The notes below the pieces were generated by a model. The model saw only the letters and a program-made list of their open reading frames with translations. It was not told where the DNA came from and made no database searches. Positions 21,131 through 33,498 of a stretch of 64,000 nucleotides of DNA are shown one piece after another (position 1 is the first letter of the stretch; the number at the start of each line of letters is the position of its first letter). Position numbers and translations under genes: made by a program. Where the stretch lies: contig NZ_CP088923.1 of assembly GCF_021545845.1 (NCBI RefSeq), positions 1,798,001 through 1,862,000 of the forward strand, in the 5' to 3' direction. This DNA comes from Rhodanobacter thiooxydans. GTDB lineage: Bacteria; Pseudomonadota; Gammaproteobacteria; Xanthomonadales; Rhodanobacteraceae.

Positions 21131-21147
21131 TTGCTGAAGCATTCATC

Positions 21148-21172
21148 GTGAGCGGACGGATGGTCCGCTCAC
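21148..21172 (+). terminator. Hairpin after cusF
   Basis: GTGAGCGGAC and GTCCGCTCAC form a perfect 10-bp stem with a five-base loop, 17 nt after the cusF stop. No clear T-run follows, so Rho assistance may be needed. Confidence 0.6.
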
Positions 21173-21179
21173 GCACGTC

Positions 21180-21670
21180 GTAAAACACGGCTCGCATAGC
21201 GCGCCTGCGGGAGCGGGGCGAGATCCCGCGGGTTCCGGTCTACCTTACAGCCCGATGGCCATCGATGCGACCCACATTGGCCACCGCCATCACGACGAAC
21301 ACCACGTATCGGACGAAGACTGCCGCCGCATGTTCGAACTGGCGACCTTCGTCAACAGCGTCGAGGAGTCCACGGCGCTCAATCGCCAGCGCGGGCCGAT
21401 GATCATCATCTCGGCCAGCGGCATGACGACCGGCGGGAGCGTGCTGCATCACATCGAAGCGTTCGGCCCCGATGATCGCAATGCCATCGTGCTCGTGGGC
21501 TACCAGGCCGGTGGCACGCGGGGCGCGGCCCTGGCGGGGGTACGTCGACGCTGCGGACGTTCGGTCGCGAAGTTCCCATCCACGCCGAGGTCATCCAGCT
21601 GGAGCGGTTCTCCGGTCAATGCCGCTGGATCGTCGGTGGAATCGACACGGCCCCGCCACCCCTCCATCAC
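21180..21670 (+). pseudogene. Remnant of a beta-CASP metallo-beta-lactamase RNase
   Basis: The frame around 21249 reads SPMAIDATHIGHRHHDEHH, then PMIIISASGMTTGGSVLHHI and VGYQAGGTRG, the central and C-terminal motifs of the MBL-fold beta-CASP exonuclease family. Near 21536-21541 the frame shifts; the continuation LRTFGREVPIHAEVIQLERF is found in the +1 frame up to about 21670. The whole N-terminal metallo-beta-lactamase domain is absent. It is therefore truncated and frameshifted, and it abuts the convergent end of hutH. Confidence 0.75.
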
Positions 21671-23196
21671 GTGGAAGGCTCGGCAAGGACGTGGCCGAAC
21701 ACCGTCGCGAAGGCATCGGCGGCGATCAGGTCGTCGGCGTGGGCGATGTCTGCGGCGAAATAGCGGTCCCTGGCGTAGCGCGGCACGACCCGGCGCACGA
21801 TGGCATGCGCGGCTTCGAGCGGCTCGGAGGAGCGCAGCGGGCGCCGGAAGTCGAGGCCCTGGCAGGCGGCCAGCAATTCGATCGCCACGATGCGCCGGAC
21901 GTTGACCGCCACGTCGATGGCCTTGCGTGCGGCGAACGTGGCCATGCTGACGTGATCCTCCTGATTGGCCGAGGTGGGGATCGAATCGGTGCTGGCCGGG
22001 TGCACGAGCGTCTTGTTCTCGCTGGCCAGGGACGCGGCAGTGACGTGGGCGATCATGAAACCGGAGTTGATGCCCGGTTCGTCGACGAGAAACGCGGGCA
22101 GGCCGGACAGCGTGGCGTCGATCAGCAGCGCGATCCGGCGCTCGGCCAGCGCACCGACTTCGGCGATCGCGATGGTGATCTGGTCGGCCGCGAACGCGAC
22201 CGGTTCGGCGTGGAAGTTGCCGCCGGACAGCACTTCGCCGTCGTCCGGAAAGACCAGCGGGTTGTCGGAAACCGCATTGGCTTCGATCTGCAGCGTGGTG
22301 GCCGCCTGGTTCAGCAGATCCAGGCATGCCCCCATGACCTGGGGCTGGCAACGCAGGCTGTAGGGGTCCTGGACGCGCGCGTCGTCGTGGCGGTGCGACT
22401 CGCGAATCGCGCTGCCCGCCAGCAACTGCCGGTAGAACCCGGCGGCGCGTATCTGGCCGGGCTGGCCGCGCACGGCATGGATGCGTGGGTCGAAGGGGGT
22501 ATCCGAGCCAGCGGCCGCATCGACCGAAAGCGAACCGGCGACGACGGCGGCGGAAAACGCCCGCTCGGCGGCAAACAACGCCATCAGTGCGATGCCGGTC
22601 GAGGCCTGGGTGCCGTTGAGCAGGGCCAGGCCTTCCTTGGCGGCCAGACGTATCGGCACGATGCCGGCATGCGCCAGGGCATCCGCGGCGGGTATCCGCA
22701 CGCCGTTCACGCGCACGTCGCCCTCGCCCATCGCGGCCAGGGTCAGGTGAGCCAGAGGGGCCAGGTCGCCCGAGGCGCCGACGGAGCCCTGCGCAGGGAT
22801 GCAGGCGTAGATCTGCGCGTTGTGCAAGGCAACGAGCGTCTGCACCACCTCCCAGCGCACGCCCGAATAGCCGCGGGCCAGGGAGGCAATCTTGAGCACC
22901 AGGATCAATTGGACGGTGGCGTCTTCGAGCAGGCAGCCCACCCCTGCGGCGTGGGAGCGGACGAGATTGGCCTGCAACTGTTCGAGCTGGTCGTCGACGA
23001 TCCGGACGTGGGCCAGCTTGCCGAAGCCGGTATTGATGCCGTACACGGGCGCACCTGCGGCGACCACGGTTTGCACGGCGGTGGCGGCGGCGCGCACCGG
23101 CGCCTCGCATTCCGGCGCCAGTTCGATCGGCGCATGCGAAGCGGCAAGGCCGCGCAGCTGGGCCAGCGTCAACCGGCTGGGAGTAAGCATTAGCAT
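21667..23196 (-). CDS. hutH: Histidine ammonia-lyase HutH
   Basis: HutH deaminates L-histidine to urocanate, the first step of histidine degradation. The 509-residue protein has [12 protein letters not shown] (catalytic Tyr52) and [11 protein letters not shown], in which Ala141-Ser142-Gly143 cyclise to the MIO prosthetic group. Further family segments include [14 protein letters not shown] and [15 protein letters not shown] [11 protein letters not shown]. The ATG at 23196 is 8 nt from the hutU stop; a second ATG two codons later is possible. It is the last gene of hutC-hutU-hutH. Confidence 0.96.
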
Positions 23197-23203
23197 GGGA
23201 TGG

Positions 23204-24907
23204 TCATCCGGTTATGGCGGGCAGGTTCAGGCCGTGTTCGCGCGCACACTGCAACGCCGTTGCATAGCCGGCGTCGGCATGGCGCATGACGCCGGTCGCC
23301 GGGTCGTTCCACAGCACGCGTTCGAGGCGCCTGGCTGCCGCGTCCGTGCCATCGCAGACGATCACGACGCCCGAGTGCTGCGAGAAGCCCATGCCGACGC
23401 CGCCGCCGTGGTGGAGGCTGACCCAGGTGGCGCCGCCGGATGCGGCCAGCAATGCGTTGAGCAGCGGCCAATCGGAAACGGCGTCGGATCCGTCGCGCAT
23501 GGCCTCGGTTTCGCGATTGGGGCTGGCGACCGAACCGCAGTCGAGGTGGTCGCGGCCGATGACGATGGGCGCGGTCAGCTCTCCGGTGCGCACCATCTCG
23601 TTGAAGGCCACGGCCGCGCGATGGCGCTGACCCAGGCCGAGCCAGCAGATGCGCGCCGGCAAGCCCTGGAAAGCGATGCGCTCCCGGGCCTGGTCCAGCC
23701 AGTCGTGCAGGCGTGCGTCTTCCGGAAAGAGTTCCTTGATCTTCGCATCGGTGCGATAGATGTCTTCCGGATCGCCGGACAGCGCGACCCAGCGGAACGG
23801 CCCCTTGCCCTGGCAGAACAGCGGACGGATGCAGGCCGGCACGAAACCGGGGAAGGCAAACGCGTCCTGCACGCCCTGGTCGAAGGCGACCTGGCGGATG
23901 TTGTTGCCATAGTCGATCGTCGGTACTCCCATGCGGTGGAAGGCCAGCATCGCGTTGACGTGCGTTGCGCAACTGGCGGCAGCGGCCTGGGTCAGCGCGT
24001 CCTGCTGCGACGGGGCGCCGCGGCGGGCCGCCTCCCATTGCGCAAGCGTCCAGCCGGCCGGCAGGTAACCGTTGATCAGGTCGTGCGCCGAGGTCTGGTC
24101 GGTCACGGCGCCGGGGCGCGCCGCGCCGGTGCGCGCAAGTTCGGCGAAGCGGGGCATGAGATCGGCGGCGTTGCCGAGCAGACCGACCGAGACAGGCGTG
24201 GCCGCATTCCCGACGATCGTCAGGGCTTCCTCGATGCTGTGCGCCTTGCGGTCGAGGTAGCGTGTGCGCAGGCGGAAGTCGATGCGCGACTCCTGGCATT
24301 CGATGACGATGCAGCTGGCGCCGGCCAGCACGGCGGCGAGCGGTTGTGCGCCTCCCATGCCGCCCAGGCCGGCCGTAAGTATCCACTTGCCCGACCAGTC
24401 GCCGGCGTAGTGTTGGCGCCCAAGCTCGACGAAGGTTTCGTAGGTGCCCTGCACGATGCCTTGCGAGCCGATGTAGATCCAGGAACCGGCCGTCATCTGG
24501 CCGTACATCATCAATCCTTTGCGATCGAGCTCGTTGAAGTGATCCCAGGTAGCCCAGTGCGGTACCAGGTTCGAGTTGGCGAGGAGCACCCGCGGAGCAT
24601 CGGCGTGGGTGCGAAAGACGCCCACCGGCTTGCCGGATTGCACCAGCAGCGTCTGGTCGTCCTCCAGCGTGCGCAGCGATTCGAGAATGAGGTCGAAGCA
24701 GCGCCAGTCTCTGGCGGCGCGGCCGATCCCGCCGTAAACCACGAGATCTTCCGGCCGCTCGGCCACATCCGGATCGAGATTGTTCTGCAGCATCCGGTAG
24801 GCGGCTTCAGCCAGCCAGTTCTTGCAGGTCAGTGCGGTACCGCGCGGCGCCCGCACCGTGCGCGGGCCCGCCTTGGGCATGGCAAGCGTATCCATGGGTG
24901 TTTCCAT
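23204..24907 (-). CDS. hutU: Urocanate hydratase HutU
   Basis: HutU converts urocanate to imidazolonepropionate with tightly bound NAD+. The 567-residue sequence has the family segments [51 protein letters not shown] (dinucleotide-binding) and the conserved region around [20 protein letters not shown]. Its start codon overlaps the hutC stop by one base, so hutC, hutU and hutH form one operon. No hutI, hutG or hutF occurs in the window, so later pathway steps must lie elsewhere or be missing. Confidence 0.96.
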
Positions 24908-25632
24908 CAGGGAGTTTTGAAATCGCCGACATTGAAATCGCCGACGAAGCGGAACTTGCCGGCGGGATAGCTGAGGCGGACGTAGCTGGCGATCTGGTCG
25001 CGCGACCAGGTGCGGCGTGTCAGCGTCAGCAATGGGCTTCCCGGCTCGACATCGAGCAGGCGTGCCAGCCGTTTGCTTGCGGCCTCGGCCTCGATGACAT
25101 GCTCGATTCGCTGCAAGGGCGCCGTGCGCATCAGGTACTGATGCGGAATTTCCTTGTAGAAATCGATCTCCAGATAGTCCGGCGCGCAGACCGGATTCAC
25201 GAAGCGGTCTTCCAGCTGCAGTGGTTCGCCGTCGGCCCGGTGCAGCAGGCGCGAATGGTAGAGCTTGGTTCCGGCAGGCAGGGCGAACTGGCGCGCCGTG
25301 ACGGGGCGCGCGGAAACAAGTTCGCGGGTCAATATCTCCACGGTATGCGCCTGCCCGCGGGAGACGATTTCATTCCGGATGCTGCGCACTTCGAACATCG
25401 CCGACTCGGCCTTGCGCTCCGCAACGAACGTTCCCGCACCCTGCGTGCGGGTGAGCATGCCGGCATCGGTCAGCTCGCGCATGGCGCGGTTGACGGTCAT
25501 GCGGGAGATGCCAAAGCGGGAGGCCAGCTCGTTTTCGCTGGGTACCTTGCTCAATGGCGGCCAGTCGCCGTTGGTGATGTGGCGGAGGATATGGCGCTTG
25601 AGTTTGAGGTACTGCGGCTGGCGTCCGTTCAT
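24907..25632 (-). CDS. hutC: Histidine utilisation repressor HutC (GntR/UTRA)
   Basis: A 241-residue GntR-family regulator: N-terminal winged helix (residues about 9-75; [20 protein letters not shown]) and C-terminal UTRA ligand domain with HutC-type features ([40 protein letters not shown]). HutC represses hut genes until urocanate binds. It is the first gene of the operon it controls. A probable operator lies 15 bp upstream of its ATG and another at the far side of the divergent promoter region. Confidence 0.95.
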
Positions 25633-25644
25633 CGCCAGAGCATT

Positions 25645-25661
25645 GCATGTCTATACAACTT
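25645..25661 (-). promoter_or_regulatory. HutC operator, hutCUH side
   Basis: Read on the minus strand the site is TTGTATAGACATG, a near-palindrome of the form TGT-NTAN-ACA typical of HutC sites. It lies just ahead of the hutC start, suited to autorepression of the hut operon. Confidence 0.75.
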
Positions 25662-25734
25662 GTGGAAGACGTCGTCGCGCACCGGGTACCGCGCTGCGGT
25701 GCATGATTGACAGCCCGATTTTGGACGTGGTACT

Positions 25735-25752
25735 AGATGGTATAGACAACTT
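25735..25752 (+). promoter_or_regulatory. Second HutC-type operator, TonB-module side
   Basis: ATGGTATAGACAAC shares the nine bases GTATAGACA with the hutC-proximal site. It lies about 25 bp upstream of the divergent small gene that heads the TonB receptor module. This suggests HutC also represses that module. Confidence 0.65.
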
Positions 25753-25774
25753 TACGAGTCGGCAGCGCCACGCC

Positions 25775-26137
25775 ATGCCCACCTGCGTCCTACTGTTGCG
25801 GTGCCTTCTGGTTGCGGCTTTCTGCCTCGATGCCAGTGTGGCGCAGTGGCGCTCGGCCGAGATGGCCGGGGTGCAGGCCCAGCGCGGCCAGGCCGGTATC
25901 CGTTCGATCGCGTATGGTTGTGACGACAATGCCGACTCGGTGCACGAACGCAAGGGGGATGCGGATTGTGACTGTACCCCGGGGTGCGCCTGCATGTGCG
26001 TATCGCCGGCCGCATCCGTCGACCAGGCGGTAGTGTTTGCCGCCCAGCATGTTCTCGATACGCATCCCTCCGTGATGGCGGTCATGCACACGGTTCGCAC
26101 CGCCATCTCCTCCGTCTTCCGACCTCCCATCGGTTGA
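25775..26137 (+). CDS. Cys-rich exported leader protein ahead of the TonB receptor
   Basis: A 120-residue protein with an N-terminal hydrophobic signal (CVLLLRCLLVAAFCLDASVA), a striking cysteine cluster (DCDCTPGCACMCV, about residues 64-76) and the terminal sequence FRPPIG. In size, export signal, Cys motif and position it resembles DUF2946-like upstream ORFs such as Bordetella CruR, which control translation of a downstream TonB receptor gene in response to copper. The start at 25775 lacks a strong ribosome binding site. Family membership is inference. Confidence 0.65.
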   Translation: MPTCVLLLRCLLVAAFCLDASVAQWRSAEMAGVQAQRGQAGIRSIAYGCDDNADSVHERKGDADCDCTPGCACMCVSPAASVDQAVVFAAQHVLDTHPSVMAVMHTVRTAISSVFRPPIG

Positions 26138-26187
26138 TCTCGTCGGCCCGCCCTCTGTGGCGGCATGTTTTGCCTTGAGCAATTTTC

Positions 26188-26208
26188 TGCCGCGCAGTCG
26201 CGCTGGCA
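26188..26208 (+). promoter_or_regulatory. Hairpin in the leader-to-TonB gap
   Basis: TGCCGCGC pairs with GCGCTGGCA (one bulged T), loop AGTC. It lies within the 127-nt gap between the leader stop and the receptor start and has no T-run. Confidence 0.45.
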
Positions 26209-26264
26209 GCGTCGCAGGCATTCACCGATCAGATCATCCCAGACCGAGTTGGGGGGAGTTTTCC

Positions 26265-28973
26265 ATGTTCTACGAGCGCAATCACCTTGCGCTGGCTATC
26301 GGCGCGCTGTTGTCCGCCGGTTTTGCCAGCACCACCTTTGCCCAGTCCACCGCCGCGCCGCCGGCCACCAACCTTGAGGCGGTCGCAGTGACTGGCAGCC
26401 ACATCAAGGGAGCCGAGATCTCCGGCGTCGGCCCGGTAACCGTCATCGATGCCGACGAGATCGCGCGTTCCGGCGTGGTGTCGGTGGAAAATCTGCTCCA
26501 GCGGCTGCCGGCCTCGGCCGGTTTTGCCGGCAACCAGACCAATGCCTATTGGGCCGACAATGGCTACGGCACCGCGCAGGTGAACCTGCGTGGCCTCGGC
26601 ATCAACCGGACGCTCGTTCTGCTCAACGGCCGGCGTATCGTCAACGGAGGCACCGGAGCCAACAGCTCCGCTGACCTGAACGTCATTCCCGTGGCGCTGA
26701 TCGACCGCATCGAGATGCTGAAGGATGGTGCGTCGGCGATCTACGGTGCCGATGCGGTGGCCGGCGTGGTCAACATCATCACCAAGAAGAAGTTCAACGG
26801 CGTCGAGGCCTCGGTTCGCTACGGCCGGACCTTCCAGCAGGACGGCGACGAGAAGGCGGTCGATCTGGCCTGGGGGATGAGCTCTGACCGGGGCTCGTTG
26901 ATGGCGGCGATCAACTACGCCGAAACCGGAGAGGTCAACATGGCGGATCGCGCGCCGTGCTCGTTCGGCGAAGTCGGCGGAAAGCTCGTGTGCGTCGGCA
27001 GCTCCTCGACGATCGGCGGCCGGGCCGTTCTGGCCGATGGCCGGAGAGTCAATTTCAATCAGGACCCCAACGGCCCGGCGAATGGCTATCACACCTACTC
27101 ACCGGCGCGCGACAACTACAATTCCAATCCGTATCTCAATGCGGTCAATCCGATCAAGCGTTTGAGCCTCAGTTCGTTCGGCAATTTGGCGTTGACGGAG
27201 GAGGTTCGTGTCTTTACCGAATTGATGTACACGAACCGGCGTTCGGACCAGCTCGCCACGCCAGGCGCGATAGGCATATACCGCCCGATCCGTATCGCGG
27301 CTGATCACCCGACCAACCCGACGGGTCAGAGCCTCTTGCTGCAGCGCAGAAGGTTGCAGGAAGCGGGTCCCCGCAACTTCTATCAGGAAGTCGACAGTTT
27401 CCGCGCGGTAGTGGGGCTGGAGGGCCGGATCGGTACCCGCTGGGATTGGTCGGCGGCGGTGAACTGGGGGCGCAGCACCGGCATCGATGGTTCCACCAAC
27501 ATCGCCAATCTGGATCGCGTCGACCAGACGTTGAACACGAGCATCTGCAGCAATGCGGCAGGTGCAGCCATTCCCTGCGGCAACTACCTCGGTTACGGCA
27601 ACCTGACTCCCAGGGTGCTCGACTACATCCTTTTCAAGAGCCGCGACAACGGCGGCAACGACCAGAAGAGTTTCACGGCGAACCTCAGCGGTGAGCTGTT
27701 CGAACTGCCGGCCGGCGTCGTCGGCGTGGCAACCGGCGTGGAGATTCGCAAGGAACGCGGCTGGCGCGACCCGGACCAGCTCACGGTGCTGGGCATCGCC
27801 AACACCAACAAGCAGGATCCGATAGCGGGCGAATACACGGCCAAGGAAGCCTTCGCCGAAGTCGCAGTTCCCCTGTTGCAGGACAAGTTCCTCGCGCAGT
27901 CGCTGAACCTCAGCGCGGCAGCGCGGTATTCCAGCTACGACCTGTTCGGCAACGACAGCAACTACAAGGTCGGCCTGGACTGGCAGATGGTGCCGTCGCT
28001 CAAGCTGCGCGCGAACTACGCCACCGCTTTCCGCATTCCCAATGTGCCCGAGCTCTTCGGCGGAGTGTCGGAGGGCAATCTGACCACGACCGATCCCTGC
28101 AACGGCTGGAGCAAGCTGCCGGCGTCGTCGGTGGTTGCGCAGAACTGCCGCGCTTCCGGCGTGCCGGCCGGCTATACCCAGCTGGGGAACACGGTACTGA
28201 CGACCGTTGGCGGCAACCCGAAACTGCAGCCCGAGGCCGCAAAGACGATGACGGCGGGAGTGGTGTGGACGCCAAACTTCGTGAACGACCTGACGGTCAC
28301 GCTGGACTACTACAAGATCAAGATCGACAACGCGATCCAGCGTATCGCCGGTTCGACCAAGCTTGCGGTGTGCTACAACACGCCCGGTTTTTCGCATCCG
28401 TTCTGCTCAGCGTCGAACTTCACCCGCAATCGGCAGACTGGCGAGATTGATTTCCTTTCGGCCCAGCCGGTCAATGCCGCGAGTGAAAGGCTCTCGGGCG
28501 TCGACCTGGGGGCGGTCTACCAGTTCGATCTGGCCGGCTGGAAGGCGTCCCTCAGCGCGGACGTCTCGTACCTGAAGAACTACGACGTGAAACCGTTCCT
28601 GGGTGCGGACGACATCCACTATGCGGGGAAGATCACCGGCGGTCGCGGCAGCTACGCGCACTGGCGTTCGTTCACTTCGCTGACGATGGTGCGCGGGCCG
28701 TGGTCTGGCTCCTACAGCGTGCAGTACATCGGCGCCGCCGACGACATCAACGCCTCGCGCGGCGATATCGGCGACCACGCACCGGGCTTGACCTATCACA
28801 ACGTGCAGCTGAAGTACGTGGTGAACACGTTCCTCGACGTTGCTTTCGGCGTCGACAATCTCTGGGACAAGCAGGCGCCATTCATCCAGAGCTATACCGA
28901 CGCGAACACCGACACCATGACCTACGACCTGCTCGGTCGGCGCTGGAACGCGAAGCTCACCTACCGCTGGTGA
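26265..28973 (+). CDS. TonB-dependent outer membrane receptor
   Basis: A 902-residue receptor that would import a scarce ligand across the outer membrane using TonB energy. A signal peptide ends at STTFAQS. The plug domain (about 35-160) contains the segments VNLRGLGINRTLVLLNGRR and DRIEMLKDGASAIYGADAVA. The 22-strand barrel ends in a typical aromatic tail (NAKLTYRW). ATG 26265 has a strong GGGGGGAG six bases upstream. The ligand cannot be read. PepSY partners downstream suggest a metal chelate; the HutC operator upstream suggests a histidine- or urocanate-related one. Confidence 0.93.
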   Translation: MFYERNHLALAIGALLSAGFASTTFAQSTAAPPATNLEAVAVTGSHIKGAEISGVGPVTVIDADEIARSGVVSVENLLQRLPASAGFAGNQTNAYWADNGYGTAQVNLRGLGINRTLVLLNGRRIVNGGTGANSSADLNVIPVALIDRIEMLKDGASAIYGADAVAGVVNIITKKKFNGVEASVRYGRTFQQDGDEKAVDLAWGMSSDRGSLMAAINYAETGEVNMADRAPCSFGEVGGKLVCVGSSSTIGGRAVLADGRRVNFNQDPNGPANGYHTYSPARDNYNSNPYLNAVNPIKRLSLSSFGNLALTEEVRVFTELMYTNRRSDQLATPGAIGIYRPIRIAADHPTNPTGQSLLLQRRRLQEAGPRNFYQEVDSFRAVVGLEGRIGTRWDWSAAVNWGRSTGIDGSTNIANLDRVDQTLNTSICSNAAGAAIPCGNYLGYGNLTPRVLDYILFKSRDNGGNDQKSFTANLSGELFELPAGVVGVATGVEIRKERGWRDPDQLTVLGIANTNKQDPIAGEYTAKEAFAEVAVPLLQDKFLAQSLNLSAAARYSSYDLFGNDSNYKVGLDWQMVPSLKLRANYATAFRIPNVPELFGGVSEGNLTTTDPCNGWSKLPASSVVAQNCRASGVPAGYTQLGNTVLTTVGGNPKLQPEAAKTMTAGVVWTPNFVNDLTVTLDYYKIKIDNAIQRIAGSTKLAVCYNTPGFSHPFCSASNFTRNRQTGEIDFLSAQPVNAASERLSGVDLGAVYQFDLAGWKASLSADVSYLKNYDVKPFLGADDIHYAGKITGGRGSYAHWRSFTSLTMVRGPWSGSYSVQYIGAADDINASRGDIGDHAPGLTYHNVQLKYVVNTFLDVAFGVDNLWDKQAPFIQSYTDANTDTMTYDLLGRRWNAKLTYRW

Positions 28974-28983
28974 CTTCGTCGGA

Positions 28984-29011
28984 AGCTGCCGGCGCGATGG
29001 CGCCGGCAGCT
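28984..29011 (+). terminator. Perfect 12-bp hairpin after the TonB receptor
   Basis: AGCTGCCGGCGC and GCGCCGGCAGCT flank the tetraloop GATG, 10 nt after the receptor stop. With no T-run it may be a partial terminator or a 3' stabiliser that lets the receptor be made in excess over the PepSY proteins. Confidence 0.6.
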
Positions 29012-29056
29012 ATCCGGTCATGCGCCCCCGGGTTGTCCGTCAGCAGGATATTTTCG

Positions 29057-29752
29057 ATGAAACTCGCATTTTGGGCGCGGCGCGCCCATCGCTGGATCGC
29101 CCTGATCGTGGGCGTGCAGGCACTCCTCTGGACGCTGAGCGGTCTTTACATGACCGCCATCTCGATCGACCTCATCCATGGCGACCACCTGGCGCACGTC
29201 GCGGCCGAGCCGCTTCGCGAGCCGGCCGTGCAGGTCGACGCCGGCACGTTGAGCGAGCGTTATCCGCACTCGACGGGTTTCAAGCTCAAGCAGTTGATGG
29301 GGCAGGCGGTATACGAGCTGCGCCAGGGCGGGAAAACCGTCCTGGTCGATGCCTCGACCGGCGCCGAGTTGCCCGCGCTGGGCGAGCAGCAGGTGCGACA
29401 GTTGGCCTCGTCGCTCTACCGCGGCGATGGCGCCATTCAATCCGTGCATCTGCTGGAGAAGGTGCCGAGCGAGGTGGCCAAGCGGCCGGTACCCATGTGG
29501 CAAGCCAATTTCTCGGATCGCGGCCACACGACGCTGTACCTGTCCGCGACGACGGGCGAATTGCTGGCGCGGCGGCACGACTTCTGGCGCCTGTACGATT
29601 TTCTCTGGATGTTCCACATCATGGACTACGAGACGCGTTCGAACGTGAACAACGGTCTGATGCGGGTAGCGGCTTCCATCGGACTGCTTTTTGCGCTCAG
29701 CGGGATCTGGCTGCTGGTGCACAGTTTCCGCAAGAGGAAGGCGACGACATGA
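29057..29752 (+). CDS. PepSY-domain inner membrane protein
   Basis: A 231-residue protein with an N-terminal transmembrane helix that carries RRAHRWIALIVGVQALLWTL, a periplasmic region with PepSY-like repeats (VYELRQGGKTVLVDASTGAE; HTTLYLSATTGELLARR), and a C-terminal helix preceded by DFLWMFHIMDYE. His residues at the membrane faces could bind haem, as in PepSY-type ferric reductases. Its stop overlaps the next start (ATGA). It probably pairs with the longer PepSY-reductase protein as a membrane electron path. Confidence 0.85.
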   Translation: MKLAFWARRAHRWIALIVGVQALLWTLSGLYMTAISIDLIHGDHLAHVAAEPLREPAVQVDAGTLSERYPHSTGFKLKQLMGQAVYELRQGGKTVLVDASTGAELPALGEQQVRQLASSLYRGDGAIQSVHLLEKVPSEVAKRPVPMWQANFSDRGHTTLYLSATTGELLARRHDFWRLYDFLWMFHIMDYETRSNVNNGLMRVAASIGLLFALSGIWLLVHSFRKRKATT

Positions 29753-31581
29753 AGCCGTGGATCCGCAAACTGCATAAATGGATCGGCCTGATCGTCGCGG
29801 CGCAATTCGTGGTCTGGACGGGAAGCGGCCTGATCATGAGCCTGCTCGATCATGACGCCGTCGAAGGCCGGACCCATCGCGCCCAGGCGCGTGAAATACC
29901 GGATTGGCCCACCGGCATGCTTGCACCGCAACGCGTGTTGGCGGATGCAGGGCGTTCGGTACAGACGCTGGAAACCATGTGGCTGGCGGATCGCCCGGTC
30001 TACCGGCTTGCCGAAAAGGCCGAGGCGTGGCTGGTGGACGCGCACACCGGGCACAGCGTGACCGTGGATGCCACGATCGCGGCGATCATCGCCGCCCGCG
30101 ACTATGTCGGCGACGGTCGACCGGAGGCACCGGAGTTCCTGCCGAAGGCCAATTTCGAGACCCGCGGTTACCAGGGCCCGGTCTGGCGCGTGGCGTTCGG
30201 CGACAGCGCCGATACGACGATCTACCTGTCGGCCCGCGATGGCCATATCCTCGAGCGCCGCAACGCGACCTGGCGGCTGTTCGATACGGTCATGATGCTG
30301 CACTTCATGGATTACACGGGGCAGCAGAACTTCAACAATCCATTGGTGGTCCTGGCGGCTTCGGGGGGACTATGGATGGCGCTGTCGGGACTGTGGCTGC
30401 TCGTTGCAAGTTTCCGCCTGAGTGAATTCGTCCCGCTTCGCTGGCGCCGGAAACGGAGCCTGGCGGTCTACGCGCCGGACGGGACGAAGCTCTGCCTGGT
30501 GGATTCGCGCGAAGGCGACAGCGTGTTTCTGGCGCTGGGGCGAAGCGGCCTGCACCTGCCGTCCAATTGCGGTGGCGGGCAGAGCTGCGGGTTGTGCGCG
30601 GTCCGTTTGCGTGGCAACGCGCCACCCTCGACGAGTTCCGATCGCGAGCATCTCAGCGCCAGCAGCCTGAAGCTGGGTTATCGATTGGCCTGCAACGTTC
30701 CGGTGCACGCCGATCTCGAGCTGGAGGTGCCCGGTGGTGCCGAGCTGTGGAACGAGCAGACGGCGATCGTCGAGAGCATCACCGCGGTGACTCCGTTCCT
30801 GCGCGAGATAAGGCTCTTGCCGTCGTCGCCCATCAGGCGGGGGTTTCAGCCGGGTTCGTATCTCCAGGTTCACGTTCCCGACTACGCGCTGCCGCGCCAG
30901 CATATTTCACACCCGGAAGAACATCGTGACGAATGGGGCGCGCTGAACCTGCCGCCGGTGCTGGTCAGCAAGGAGCCGGTCCGGCGTTCGTATTCGCTGT
31001 CGCTGCCGGTGGAGAAGGCCGGGTGGCATCTCACCTTGCTGGCCCGTTTCAGCGTGGGAAGCCCGGGCAGCAAACACCGGTTCGTGGGCAAGGGTTCGGC
31101 CTACCTGTATTCGCTCAAGCCGGGCGACGCGATCCGCTTCAGCGGGCCGTTCGGCGACTTCGCCCTGCGTCCGGGCGATCGCGAAAAGATCTTTATCGGC
31201 GGCGGTGCAGGCATGGCTCCATTGCGGGCGATGATCCACTCCCGGCTCGACCAGGGCGGGCAAGAGCGAATCCATTTCTGGTATGGAGCCCGTCATCGCG
31301 GGGAGGCGCCCTACATCGACGAGATGGCCGAACTGGCATCGCGTCATTCCAACTTCACCTGGCATCTCGTGTTGTCGGAAACGGCCGGACATGGCGCCAT
31401 GTCGATCGAAGGTCTGGTACACGAGGCCACCCACCAGGGTTTGCTGCGCGATCATCCTGACTTGCAGTCCTGCGAGTTTTACCTGTGCGGCCCTCCAGGC
31501 ATGTTGTCGGCCACCATCAAGCTGCTGCGAAGCCTGGGTGTCGATGACGAGCGCATAGCCTTCGACGACTTCAAGATATGA
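29749..31581 (+). CDS. PepSY membrane protein fused to an NqrF-like ferredoxin reductase
   Basis: A 610-residue fusion. Residues 1-230 repeat the PepSY layout of the preceding gene (KLHKWIGLIVAAQFVVWTGS; FDTVMMLHFMDYTGQQNFNN). Residues about 240-330 form a 2Fe-2S ferredoxin with cysteines 274, 280, 283 and 315, the C-x5-C-x2-C-x31-C spacing of NqrF. Residues about 335-610 form the FAD/NAD(P)H reductase, with RRSYS at 412-416, GGGAGMAPLRAM near 483 and CGPPGM near 580. It would carry electrons from NADH through flavin and iron-sulphur to the membrane or periplasm, plausibly to reduce an imported metal chelate. Confidence 0.92.
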   Translation: MKPWIRKLHKWIGLIVAAQFVVWTGSGLIMSLLDHDAVEGRTHRAQAREIPDWPTGMLAPQRVLADAGRSVQTLETMWLADRPVYRLAEKAEAWLVDAHTGHSVTVDATIAAIIAARDYVGDGRPEAPEFLPKANFETRGYQGPVWRVAFGDSADTTIYLSARDGHILERRNATWRLFDTVMMLHFMDYTGQQNFNNPLVVLAASGGLWMALSGLWLLVASFRLSEFVPLRWRRKRSLAVYAPDGTKLCLVDSREGDSVFLALGRSGLHLPSNCGGGQSCGLCAVRLRGNAPPSTSSDREHLSASSLKLGYRLACNVPVHADLELEVPGGAELWNEQTAIVESITAVTPFLREIRLLPSSPIRRGFQPGSYLQVHVPDYALPRQHISHPEEHRDEWGALNLPPVLVSKEPVRRSYSLSLPVEKAGWHLTLLARFSVGSPGSKHRFVGKGSAYLYSLKPGDAIRFSGPFGDFALRPGDREKIFIGGGAGMAPLRAMIHSRLDQGGQERIHFWYGARHRGEAPYIDEMAELASRHSNFTWHLVLSETAGHGAMSIEGLVHEATHQGLLRDHPDLQSCEFYLCGPPGMLSATIKLLRSLGVDDERIAFDDFKI

Positions 31582-31798
31582 CGCATGGCTGGTTCCGTGG
31601 AGCGAAGCAGGCACGCTGCCCGTTGGTTGACGCCGTCATCGGTTTCCGACCTGGAATCGCACCGGGCACCGATGCCGGCGACAGCAGCGGCGCCTCCGTT
31701 GCTGGTGCCGCGGCTGATCGTCGCGGCGGGTGAACGGCATGTGGTGCGTCGCATCGCCGGTTGCCTTCGTGGCTTTTCCTGCGCATAGTGGGCGGGTC

Positions 31799-32188
31799 AT
31801 GAGCGTACTTCGTACTCTTCGCCGCTTGCCCCATCGTCGCCCCGTCATGGTGCGCACGGTGCTGCTGTTCGCGCTGGCGATGGTGCTGTCGGCCTTGATG
31901 CCGAGATGGATCACGCATAGCCATGACGGCGCGCACACGGCAGTGCACGCGATCGCCGCCGATGCCGCCGCCGATCACCAGCATGCCGACAGTGCCGGCG
32001 AGCCGGTGGTGCCGTTGCCGGACGGCTCGCACGTCCATGCGCATTACCTGGCCGGCGCAGCGGCAACCCTGCCGCAAGTCGTCGTTGCGCTGTGCGCACC
32101 GGTGCAGGCAGACGCCTGCACGCCCTGGCAGGATGCCTCCGCACCCGACGGTTCGCTGACCCGCCTGCATCGCCCTCCCATCGTCTGA
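31799..32188 (+). CDS. His-rich exported leader protein ahead of czcCBA
   Basis: A 129-residue protein with a hydrophobic N-terminal segment (VMVRTVLLFALAMVLSAL), histidine-rich stretches (THSHDGAHTAVHA; DHQHADSAG; GSHVHAHY), two cysteines (LCAPVQADAC) and the terminal sequence HRPPIV. The His content suits Zn/Co/Ni rather than Cu. It lies 66 nt before czcC. ATG 31799 follows a GGCGGG-like site; an internal ATG 16 codons later would still give a signal sequence. Function is inferred from position and from the shared tail. Confidence 0.6.
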   Translation: MSVLRTLRRLPHRRPVMVRTVLLFALAMVLSALMPRWITHSHDGAHTAVHAIAADAAADHQHADSAGEPVVPLPDGSHVHAHYLAGAAATLPQVVVALCAPVQADACTPWQDASAPDGSLTRLHRPPIV

Positions 32189-32203
32189 CGGCAACGTCCC
32201 GAC

Positions 32204-32218
32204 GGCCGCCTCGCGGCC
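32204..32218 (+). promoter_or_regulatory. Hairpin between leader and czcC
   Basis: GGCCGC (32204-32209) pairs with GCGGCC (32213-32218) over a three-base loop, 16 nt after the leader stop and before the GGGAG ribosome site of czcC. Confidence 0.45.
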
Positions 32219-32254
32219 TGAACTCGTTGACTGTGCATTCGATGGGAGATCGTC

Positions 32255-33498
32255 GTGTTTTCTTTACGCTGTCTGTGCCTCCTGCTGCTGGCGGGCGGTT
32301 TCGGTGCGCCTGCGGTGGCGGGCGAGGCCCTTTCGCTGCCGCAAGCGGTGGCTCGTGCACTTGCGCACAACCCGGCCATTCGTGCCGGCGACCGGACCGT
32401 CGTCGCCGCCGAACGGCAGGCGGACCTTGCCGGTCTTGCGCCGCCCTGGGTGGTGGGGGCGGAGGTGGAGAACGTGGCCGGCAGCGGATCGCTGGCCGGC
32501 GTCGGAGCGGCAGAGACCACCTTGCGGCTGGGCCGTGTCCTCGAACGGGGCGGCAAGCGCGACGCTCGCGTGGCCGCGGGTGCCATCGACATCGAGCGGT
32601 CGCGCAATGCGCTGGAACAGGTCCGTCTGGAGCTGGCCACCGAGGCCGCACGGCGCTTCGTCGAAGTGCTCGCCGACCAGGCGCGCACCACCCTGGCGGC
32701 GCAGGACCTCGCCCTCGCGCACGAGCTGACGGCGACCGTGCGGCGCTGGGTGCAGGCCGGCCGCAGTCCGGAGTCGGACCTCGACCTGATGCAGATCGCC
32801 GAGGCGCGCGCCGACATCGAGGTGGAGCACGCGTCCCACGAGCTGGCCAGTGCTAGGGTCTCCCTGGCCGCGCTGTGGCATGCCGCCGAGCCTGATTTCG
32901 ACGCGGTGGCCGGCAACCTGTTCGAGTTGCCCGCGGTACCGTCGTATGCAGCCCTCATTTCGCGCCTGCCCGACAACCCCGCTTTGCGCGGCCTGGCGCT
33001 GGACGCGCACGCGGCACGGGCGCGCGAGCGCGTCGCCGCCGCCAGCGCCAAGCCGGACGTTACCTGGCACGTCGGCGTGCGGCGGCTGTCGACGTTCAAC
33101 GACACGGCGCTGATCGCCGGGGTATCGCTGCCGCTGGGCAGTGCCGGACGCTCGGCGCTCAGCGTAGCCCAGTCGGAGGCCGAGACCGAGGCGGCCGACG
33201 CGCGCGCACAGGCGCAGCAGATGGACGTGCGCCAGCGGCTGTTCTCCGCGTACCAGGAAATGGTCCACGCGCGTACCGCCTTCGAGGCGCATCGCGACCG
33301 CATGATCCCGAAGGCCGAAGCCGCGCTGGCGCTGACCCGCAAGGGTTTCGAGGCGGGGCGCTTCAGCTTCGTCGCGCTGTCGCAGGCCCAGCGCACGCTG
33401 CTCGAACTGCGCAACGCGCAGATCGACGCCGCCGTCCGTTACCACATCTTGTTGACCGACATCGAACGGATGACGGTCTCGGCCGGAGTTTCGTCGCC

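Follow-up and report, generated by a model that had tools for sequence, protein, structure and literature searches.

What could join the catabolism of histidine to a TonB-dependent receptor and a set of PepSY and reductase proteins? The question is raised by a 64,000-nucleotide (nt) stretch of the Rhodanobacter thiooxydans genome (contig NZ_CP088923.1, positions 1,798,001 to 1,862,000), here called the window, in which hutC, hutU and hutH run leftward from position 25632 and genes for a leader peptide, a TonB-dependent receptor, a PepSY_TM protein and a PepSY_TM-reductase fusion run divergently to the right. A sequence-only reading had proposed that the rightward module is gated by HutC at its promoter and by metal at its leader, and that it imports and reduces a metal-histidine or related chelate. 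The analysis reported here partly supports that interpretation, and we put at about even the chance that the genes form a two-input importer/reductase module for copper-histidine.

HutC-type operators at the module promoter

The product of hutC (24907..25632, minus strand) is a GntR/UTRA histidine-utilization repressor (TIGR02018, 287.5 bits against a cut-off of 220; Pfam GntR and UTRA). Two HutC sites claimed between hutC and the divergent transcript were located there, operator 1, TGTCTATACA (25648..25657), ahead of hutC, and operator 2, GGTATAGACA (25739..25748), just downstream of a candidate promoter of the leader transcript, and they are the sole two matches to.GT[AC]TA[GT]AC. in the window. 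Across the whole 4.2 Mb genome the strict form, TGTMTAKACA, has a single location, which precedes hutC. Both sites match the HutC-subfamily consensus NyGTMTAKACNy (PMC4494728) and resemble the footprinted Pseudomonas HutC site, TGTA-N2-TACA (PMC12977541). The candidate promoter (25707..25735, plus strand) was identified by eye as TTGACA (25707-25712), a 17-nt spacer and a weak GTACTA (25730-25735); a strict sigma-70 scan of 25600-26300 returned zero promoters and did not pass it. A repressor bound at the predicted operator 2 would block the start of transcription. In the 4.1 kb hutI locus of the same genome, no site within two mismatches of TGTATAGACA was found.

To follow operator 2 beyond the window, module copies with a readable 5′ end were tallied. 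The resulting 35 copies exclude L003 and L070, in which the 5′ end of the receptor gene runs off the contig or piece, and the loci at which no receptor matched (L008-L014, L075, L101-L103, L109); the copies are related, and counts are not independent events. Of the 35, 30 had a HutC core upstream of the leader or receptor, which bears out the expectation that the second operator is conserved in related genomes. The 30 fetched loci (573,721 bp) contained 43 cores, 41 of them in the hutC, leader or receptor promoter region, and on seven plasmid stretches (155,699 bp) all 12 cores accompanied the receptor or hut/hutC genes. Where hutC was adjacent and divergent, operator 1 and operator 2 were both kept (18/18 copies).

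The site also follows HutC where hutC is unlinked. In five genomes of one genus (g38), hutC lies elsewhere, beside hutF, and TGTATATACA stands upstream of the leader at the module; the neighbor was scanned as hutF in one genome and hutI in another, and both hutC products scanned passed TIGR02018. Strict sites numbered 3, 3, 2, 3 and 4 in these genomes against 0 for the reversed-pattern control, and in every genome the module and hutF/hutC each had one of them. Moreover, in a locus from a different family (L074) hutC is the fourth gene of the receptor operon, with TGTATATACA at −191 and no leader, and in the plasmid copies of Massilia, Indioceanicola (two), Sphingomonas, Sphingopyxis and Croceicoccus the receptor is preceded by a core at a distance of 55-109 nt. 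Because operator 2 is kept in 30 of the 35 copies and tracks HutC where hutC is unlinked, HutC control is well supported. We conclude that HutC very probably controls the module, and that such predicted control is common, not universal.

Four of the g38 genomes carry additional strict sites, one each in G158, G312 and G217 and two in G257. The loci of these further HutC-type sites (L100, L093, L087, L088 and L092) were viewed as open reading frames (ORFs) only.

Distribution of the module and its copper-resistance neighbors

Among named genomes, the fusion protein was matched best in a Rhodanobacter assembly (87%). With the window counted, matches at E <= 1e-60 were found in 3 of 147 family genomes; order-wide, 64 of 398 genomes had a match, 22 of them over the full length and with at least 54% identity, and the remaining matches mostly covered one half of the protein. 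The divergent arrangement of hutH-hutU-hutC and leader-receptor-PepSY-fusion recurs in other Xanthomonadales, where a synteny check had been suggested earlier, namely in a Rhodanobacter metagenome-assembled genome, Lysobacter concretionis (twice), Luteimonas mephitis and Lysobacter sp. A03. In the order-wide fetched set hutC adjoins the module in 11 of 20 loci; L060 and L063 have hutC without hutU or hutH matches, and L064 has hutC and hutH only. L. concretionis Ko07 carries two whole cassettes (L004, L005) on separate contigs, the receptors of which are 62% and 76% identical to that of the window.

In the window, hutU (23204..24907, minus strand) encodes urocanate hydratase (TIGR01228, 917 bits, cut-off 375) and hutH (21667..23196, minus strand) histidine ammonia-lyase (NF006871, 725 bits, cut-off 524; TIGR01225, 680 bits, cut-off 539). 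This HutH is the only full-length strong HutH of the genome; a second lyase-like gene matched at 41-48%, in two pieces. An arginase-family gene follows hutH, in the hutG position, in the loci of three named relatives. The same slot in the window (21131-21666) is without it and holds an ORF whose start resembles, by eye, a fragment of a metallo-beta-lactamase-fold RNase.

Outside the Xanthomonadales chromosomes, the module recurs on alpha-, beta- and gammaproteobacterial plasmids, of which we opened one of eight Xanthomonas records with the fusion and seven stretches from 24 records with the receptor. Plasmid pLH3.1 of Xanthomonas perforans (L104) carries hutG-hutH-hutU-hutC, the leader, the receptor and the PepSY pair, surrounded by copA, copB, P-type ATPases, a Cus-type resistance-nodulation-division system and cueR. 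In Massilia sp. H6 the receptor and PepSY pair lie among copA, copB, copC and copD. The Sphingomonas MM-1 and Sphingopyxis indica plasmids have the receptor, two PepSY genes and hutC, copA/copB lie close by, and the roughly 20 kb shown of each contain no hut enzymes; hut enzymes are present with the Croceicoccus plasmid copy, and cus genes adjoin the Indioceanicola copy. More distant PepSY pairs were found near CopA-type ATPases or CusA/CzcA pumps (L009, L010, L011, L013 and L101), and that of L012 has a neighbor that by similarity is CusA. TonB-dependent receptors have been named in a Xanthomonas copper island (PMC11651105), in the available text of which histidine, hut and PepSY are absent. 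Because copies of the module sit among copper-resistance genes, the module is linked to copper, in agreement with the metal link drawn from the window, and we conclude from these neighborhoods that its metal is probably copper.

As an observation on its host, pLH3.1 is a copper-resistance plasmid of a tomato pathogen that carries hut genes together with the module, and seven further Xanthomonas plasmids have the fusion.

A CopL-family leader and a predicted mRNA mask

The leader (25775..26137, plus strand) is an upstream open reading frame (uORF) of 120 amino acids that scored 48.8 bits with NF033807 (CopL_fam, cut-off 40). Seven of eight module leaders scanned were above that cut-off, and L006 reached 37.4. 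The window leader has an N terminus that looks hydrophobic by eye, followed by a CxCxxxCxCxC cluster, 40 residues and a C-terminal FRPPIG. The distance from the last cluster Cys to RPPI is exactly 40 residues in 27 of 28 leaders (26 plus that of pLH3.1). The RP of RPPI is encoded by CGA CCT in 27 of the 28, pLH3.1 included, and by CGA CCG in L019; in the module genes CGA makes up 4.9% of Arg codons and CCT 6.7% of Pro codons. No Pfam family matched, and membership in DUF2946, the family of CruR, was excluded. A search of 25500-32300 against Rfam found no riboswitch family at gathering score. Of the earlier comparison with CruR, the metal-sensing uORF anatomy was retained and the CruR/DUF2946 membership gave way to the CopL family.

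The leader shares its predicted features with characterized peptides. CutF of Rhodobacter capsulatus and CopL of Xanthomonas copLAB are exported nascent copper-sensing peptides with a C-terminal Pro motif; each acts in cis, on a stem that conceals the ribosome-binding site of the gene that follows (PMC9973294). The copL of pLH3.1, ahead of copA, scored 104.5 bits with NF033807 and shares the CxCxC-40-RPPIG geometry, with one extra Cys after it. Whereas CutF and CopL precede copper oxidases, the module leader precedes a receptor under predicted HutC control. CruR likewise has a Pro arrest motif at a fixed distance from a Cys motif, but 45 residues separate its CXXC from RAPP (PMC9426467), and it is a DUF2946/RAPP protein whereas the module leader is of the CopL family with RPPI. 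We conclude that the anatomy of the leader fits a metal-sensing arrest-peptide uORF, and that the leader is likely to act as an arrest-peptide uORF.

The codons for RPPIG (CGACCTCCCATCGGT, 26120..26134, plus strand) are predicted to serve both as arrest site and as anti-Shine-Dalgarno sequence. Their CCTCC pairs with GGGGAG or GGGAG of the receptor, and arms resembling TGATCTTGTC and GACAAGATCA extend the pairing. In the window the predicted stem joins 26123-26146 with 26225-26256 (26123..26256, plus strand) and would mask the receptor ribosome-binding site. For copL, by comparison, the predicted stem lies just past the arrest codons. Because the 3′ part of a MAFFT alignment of the intergenic mRNA was badly aligned, pairing was assessed as pairwise duplexes in place of a covariance model, in a partner-swap test that set the own 5′ and 3′ segments of each locus against segments exchanged between loci. 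The test used 19 of the 26 leaders, leaving out near-duplicates and close kin (L005, L062, L063, L069, L071 and L073) and L056, the piece of which does not end at the start codon. Own pairs gave −29.3 kcal/mol and swapped pairs −24.7 kcal/mol (p = 5e-5), and the second helix alone gave p = 8.5e-4.

The receptor, the PepSY pair and the NqrF-like reductase

All four ORFs claimed for the divergent transcript have family matches, the leader to NF033807 as given above. The receptor (26265..28973, plus strand; 902 amino acids) matched Pfam TonB_dep_Rec_b-barrel (125.5 bits) and Plug (75 bits). Its AlphaFold2 model had a mean predicted local distance difference test (pLDDT) score of 59.0 and was excluded from fold searches. 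Compared with PDB sequences, the receptor matched BtuB, siderophore and heme receptors and no chain named CrtA, the CrtA sequence itself lying outside the comparison. The PepSY_TM protein (29057..29752, plus strand; 231 amino acids) scored 36.1 bits with PF03929 (cut-off 28.8), and a PDB phmmer search with it alone gave nothing meaningful up to E = 10. The third protein (29749..31581, plus strand; 610 amino acids) fuses a PepSY_TM domain (PF03929, 41.2 bits) to a 2Fe-2S ferredoxin (Fer2) domain and an NqrF-like flavin adenine dinucleotide (FAD)/NAD reductase. The AlphaFold2 model of the fusion had a mean pLDDT of 83.2, and its best PDB folds were NqrF chains. An assignment as NqrF itself was rejected at 256 bits with TIGR01941 (cut-off 295); the reductase half of the earlier interpretation is supported by the domains and by invariant His residues.

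Two His residues are invariant in each member of the PepSY pair, His11 and His187 in the PepSY_TM protein and His9 and His185 in the PepSY_TM domain of the fusion (31 sequences each). FoxB and CrpH, together with NqrF, offer the same PepSY_TM family, paired invariant His residues and NqrF-like electron input, whereas the module has two single-PepSY chains, one of which is fused to the reductase. By analogy with FoxB and CrpH, the PepSY pair would likely form a two-heme wire. In the Sphingomonas, Sphingopyxis and Croceicoccus copies (L110, L111 and L112) the second PepSY is not fused to a reductase, so another electron donor must serve the sphingomonad proteins.

A proposed histidine and copper gate

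In the mechanism that we propose, HutC would occupy the leader promoter and be released by the urocanate that HutH makes from histidine, and the module would then be transcribed together with the hut genes. As a second input, the exported nascent leader would bind copper through its Cys cluster and thereby change how long the ribosome dwells at the RPP codons. A ribosome on those codons would cover the anti-Shine-Dalgarno sequence, opening the stem for translation of the receptor, and the stem would close when the ribosome departs. By likeness to CopL and CutF, we would expect copper to switch the receptor on, which would create an AND gate for the joint presence of histidine and copper, and hence for copper-histidine. 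The receptor would import Cu(II)-histidine to the periplasm, and the PepSY pair, fed from NADH via FAD and 2Fe-2S, would reduce Cu(II) to Cu(I) and loosen the histidine. The freed histidine would enter catabolism, and the copper would pass to cuproproteins or to nearby efflux genes.

Copper binds histidine strongly (PMC10903455), and the recurrence of this arrangement in many bacteria and on copper-resistance plasmids suggests copper bound to histidine; that the ligand is copper-histidine seems to us an evenly balanced proposition. In Acinetobacter baumannii, histidine catabolism likewise frees a metal, but the metal is zinc and the transporter is inner-membrane HutT, and the available text mentions no TonB receptor, reductase or leader (PMC10903455). 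A wider reading, tentative and in our judgment somewhat doubtful, is of a mobile copper-histidine system in which the HutC-controlled receptor and heme-wired NADH reductase of copper-resistance islands in alpha-, beta- and gammaproteobacteria would strip the copper from copper-histidine, histidine would become food and efflux genes would handle the Cu(I), the Xanthomonadales leader adding a histidine-AND-copper gate through arrest codons that are also the anti-Shine-Dalgarno sequence. If true, amino-acid catabolism and copper handling would be joined in one regulated module, a copper-linked TonB receptor family would gain a candidate ligand, and the presence of hut genes on some copper-resistance plasmids, including those of crop-associated Xanthomonas, would be explained. 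The leader would be a compact two-signal switch whose arrest codons are predicted to double as RNA mask.

Several observations weigh against the proposal. Cores were absent at five of the 35 modules (L055, L056, L058, L018 and L019). The genomes G351, G261, G091 and G032, to which L055, L056, L018 and L019 belong, had no HutC homologue at E <= 1e-25, and G353 (L058; probably P. wuyuanensis by name) has a HutC homologue and a core-free module. No CopA/CusA-type neighbor was found at L008, L075 and L103 (short pieces or no match) or at L109 (G778), where a PepSY pair stands without receptor, HutC core or copper neighbor in 18 kb, and CusA/CzcA neighbors (TIGR00914) are not copper-specific. At L019 the leader-like ORF ends in RPPTV, lies 548 nt upstream and has broken spacing, and at L057 there is no mask (rank 19 of 19 in the partner-swap test). 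When the 25 nt under a stalled ribosome were removed in 25 of the 26 leaders (L056 left out), the Shine-Dalgarno sequence was freed only in part, with the mean unpaired fraction going from 0.19 to 0.37 and that of the window from 0.02 to 0.12; in L065 it dropped from 0.18 to 0.06. The short upstream region of the receptor contains no leader in the sphingomonad, Massilia and Indioceanicola copies and in L074, which would make metal gating a lineage addition. Finally, the related leader CruR, which precedes a TonB receptor for copper, has the opposite sign, with copper as the off signal (PMC9426467).

Alternative explanations

The last point belongs to an alternative that we consider unlikely, in which the module acquires copper in the manner of CrtA and CrpH of Bordetella: another copper ligand would feed copper enzymes, the leader would shut the receptor off when copper is plentiful, and HutC would merely tune the system to amino-acid catabolism. 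In Bordetella pertussis the cruR-crtA(bfrG)-crpH operon has a Cys-containing uORF, a TonB receptor gene and a PepSY_TM gene in the same order as the module (PMC12914433, PMC13038864, PMC9426467), and the 40-residue leader geometry is near the 45 residues of CruR. But only the module has a HutC operator at the promoter, a predicted Shine-Dalgarno mask and a second PepSY that is joined to a ferredoxin/NqrF-like reductase, whereas the Bordetella operon is subject to Rho-dependent termination (PMC9426467). Copper-resistance islands would be an odd home for a copper-hunger system, a ligand other than histidine leaves HutC sites across three proteobacterial classes unexplained, the leader is of the CopL family, and the solved structures matched by the receptor are without CrtA, with the limit on that comparison stated above. 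An explanation of similarly low probability makes the receptor the outer-membrane part of the hut regulon, taking up histidine, urocanate, an imidazole compound or a His-peptide as food, with metal incidental. The strong HutC link of the module favors it, as does a RegPrecise prediction for Caulobacterales and Sphingomonadales of a TonB transporter gene, preceded by a HutC site, for possible histidine uptake (PMC5343134), and sphingomonad copies of the module were found; the likeness is by description, and PepSY, leader and copper go unmentioned in the available text. Food uptake would leave unexplained the two PepSY proteins with an NADH reductase, the Cys-cluster leader, and the location in copper islands, twice with hutC and without hut enzymes in the stretch seen.

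We think it quite improbable that the ligand holds another metal (iron, zinc, nickel or cobalt) in a histidine-like chelate. PepSY_TM proteins of known activity do reduce ferrisiderophores (PMC13038864), and Acinetobacter obtains zinc from His-Zn via hut genes (PMC10903455), but the Cys-rich CopL-type leader and the copper-resistance neighbors speak for copper, and a reductase would have no work to do on zinc, which is not redox active. It is very improbable that operator 2 is a coincidental match and that the module merely adjoins the hut genes: HutC-type cores are short and five of 35 copies lack one, yet the concentration of 41 of 43 cores in the promoter region, the sites kept with unlinked hutC and in other classes, and the 30 of 35 copies led us to reject a chance operator. 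The link between HutC and a TonB transporter is not by itself new (PMC5343134). HutC control of a copper-linked receptor/PepSY module was undescribed among the matches listed in the open-licence PMC literature.

Further leader-like sequences

A second leader-like ORF (31811-32188, plus strand; 125 amino acids) is His-rich, ends in LHRPPIV and lies ahead of czcC at 32255; neither a Pfam nor an NCBIfam family matched it. A stem of −43.6 kcal/mol is predicted between its codons CGCCCTCCCATCG and the ribosome-binding site of czcC (CGATGGGAG). Two more CopL-like matches, below the cut-off, were found at G000 C1:2430764-2442563 and C2:75233-87032, and their equal scores on both contigs suggest a duplicated stretch.

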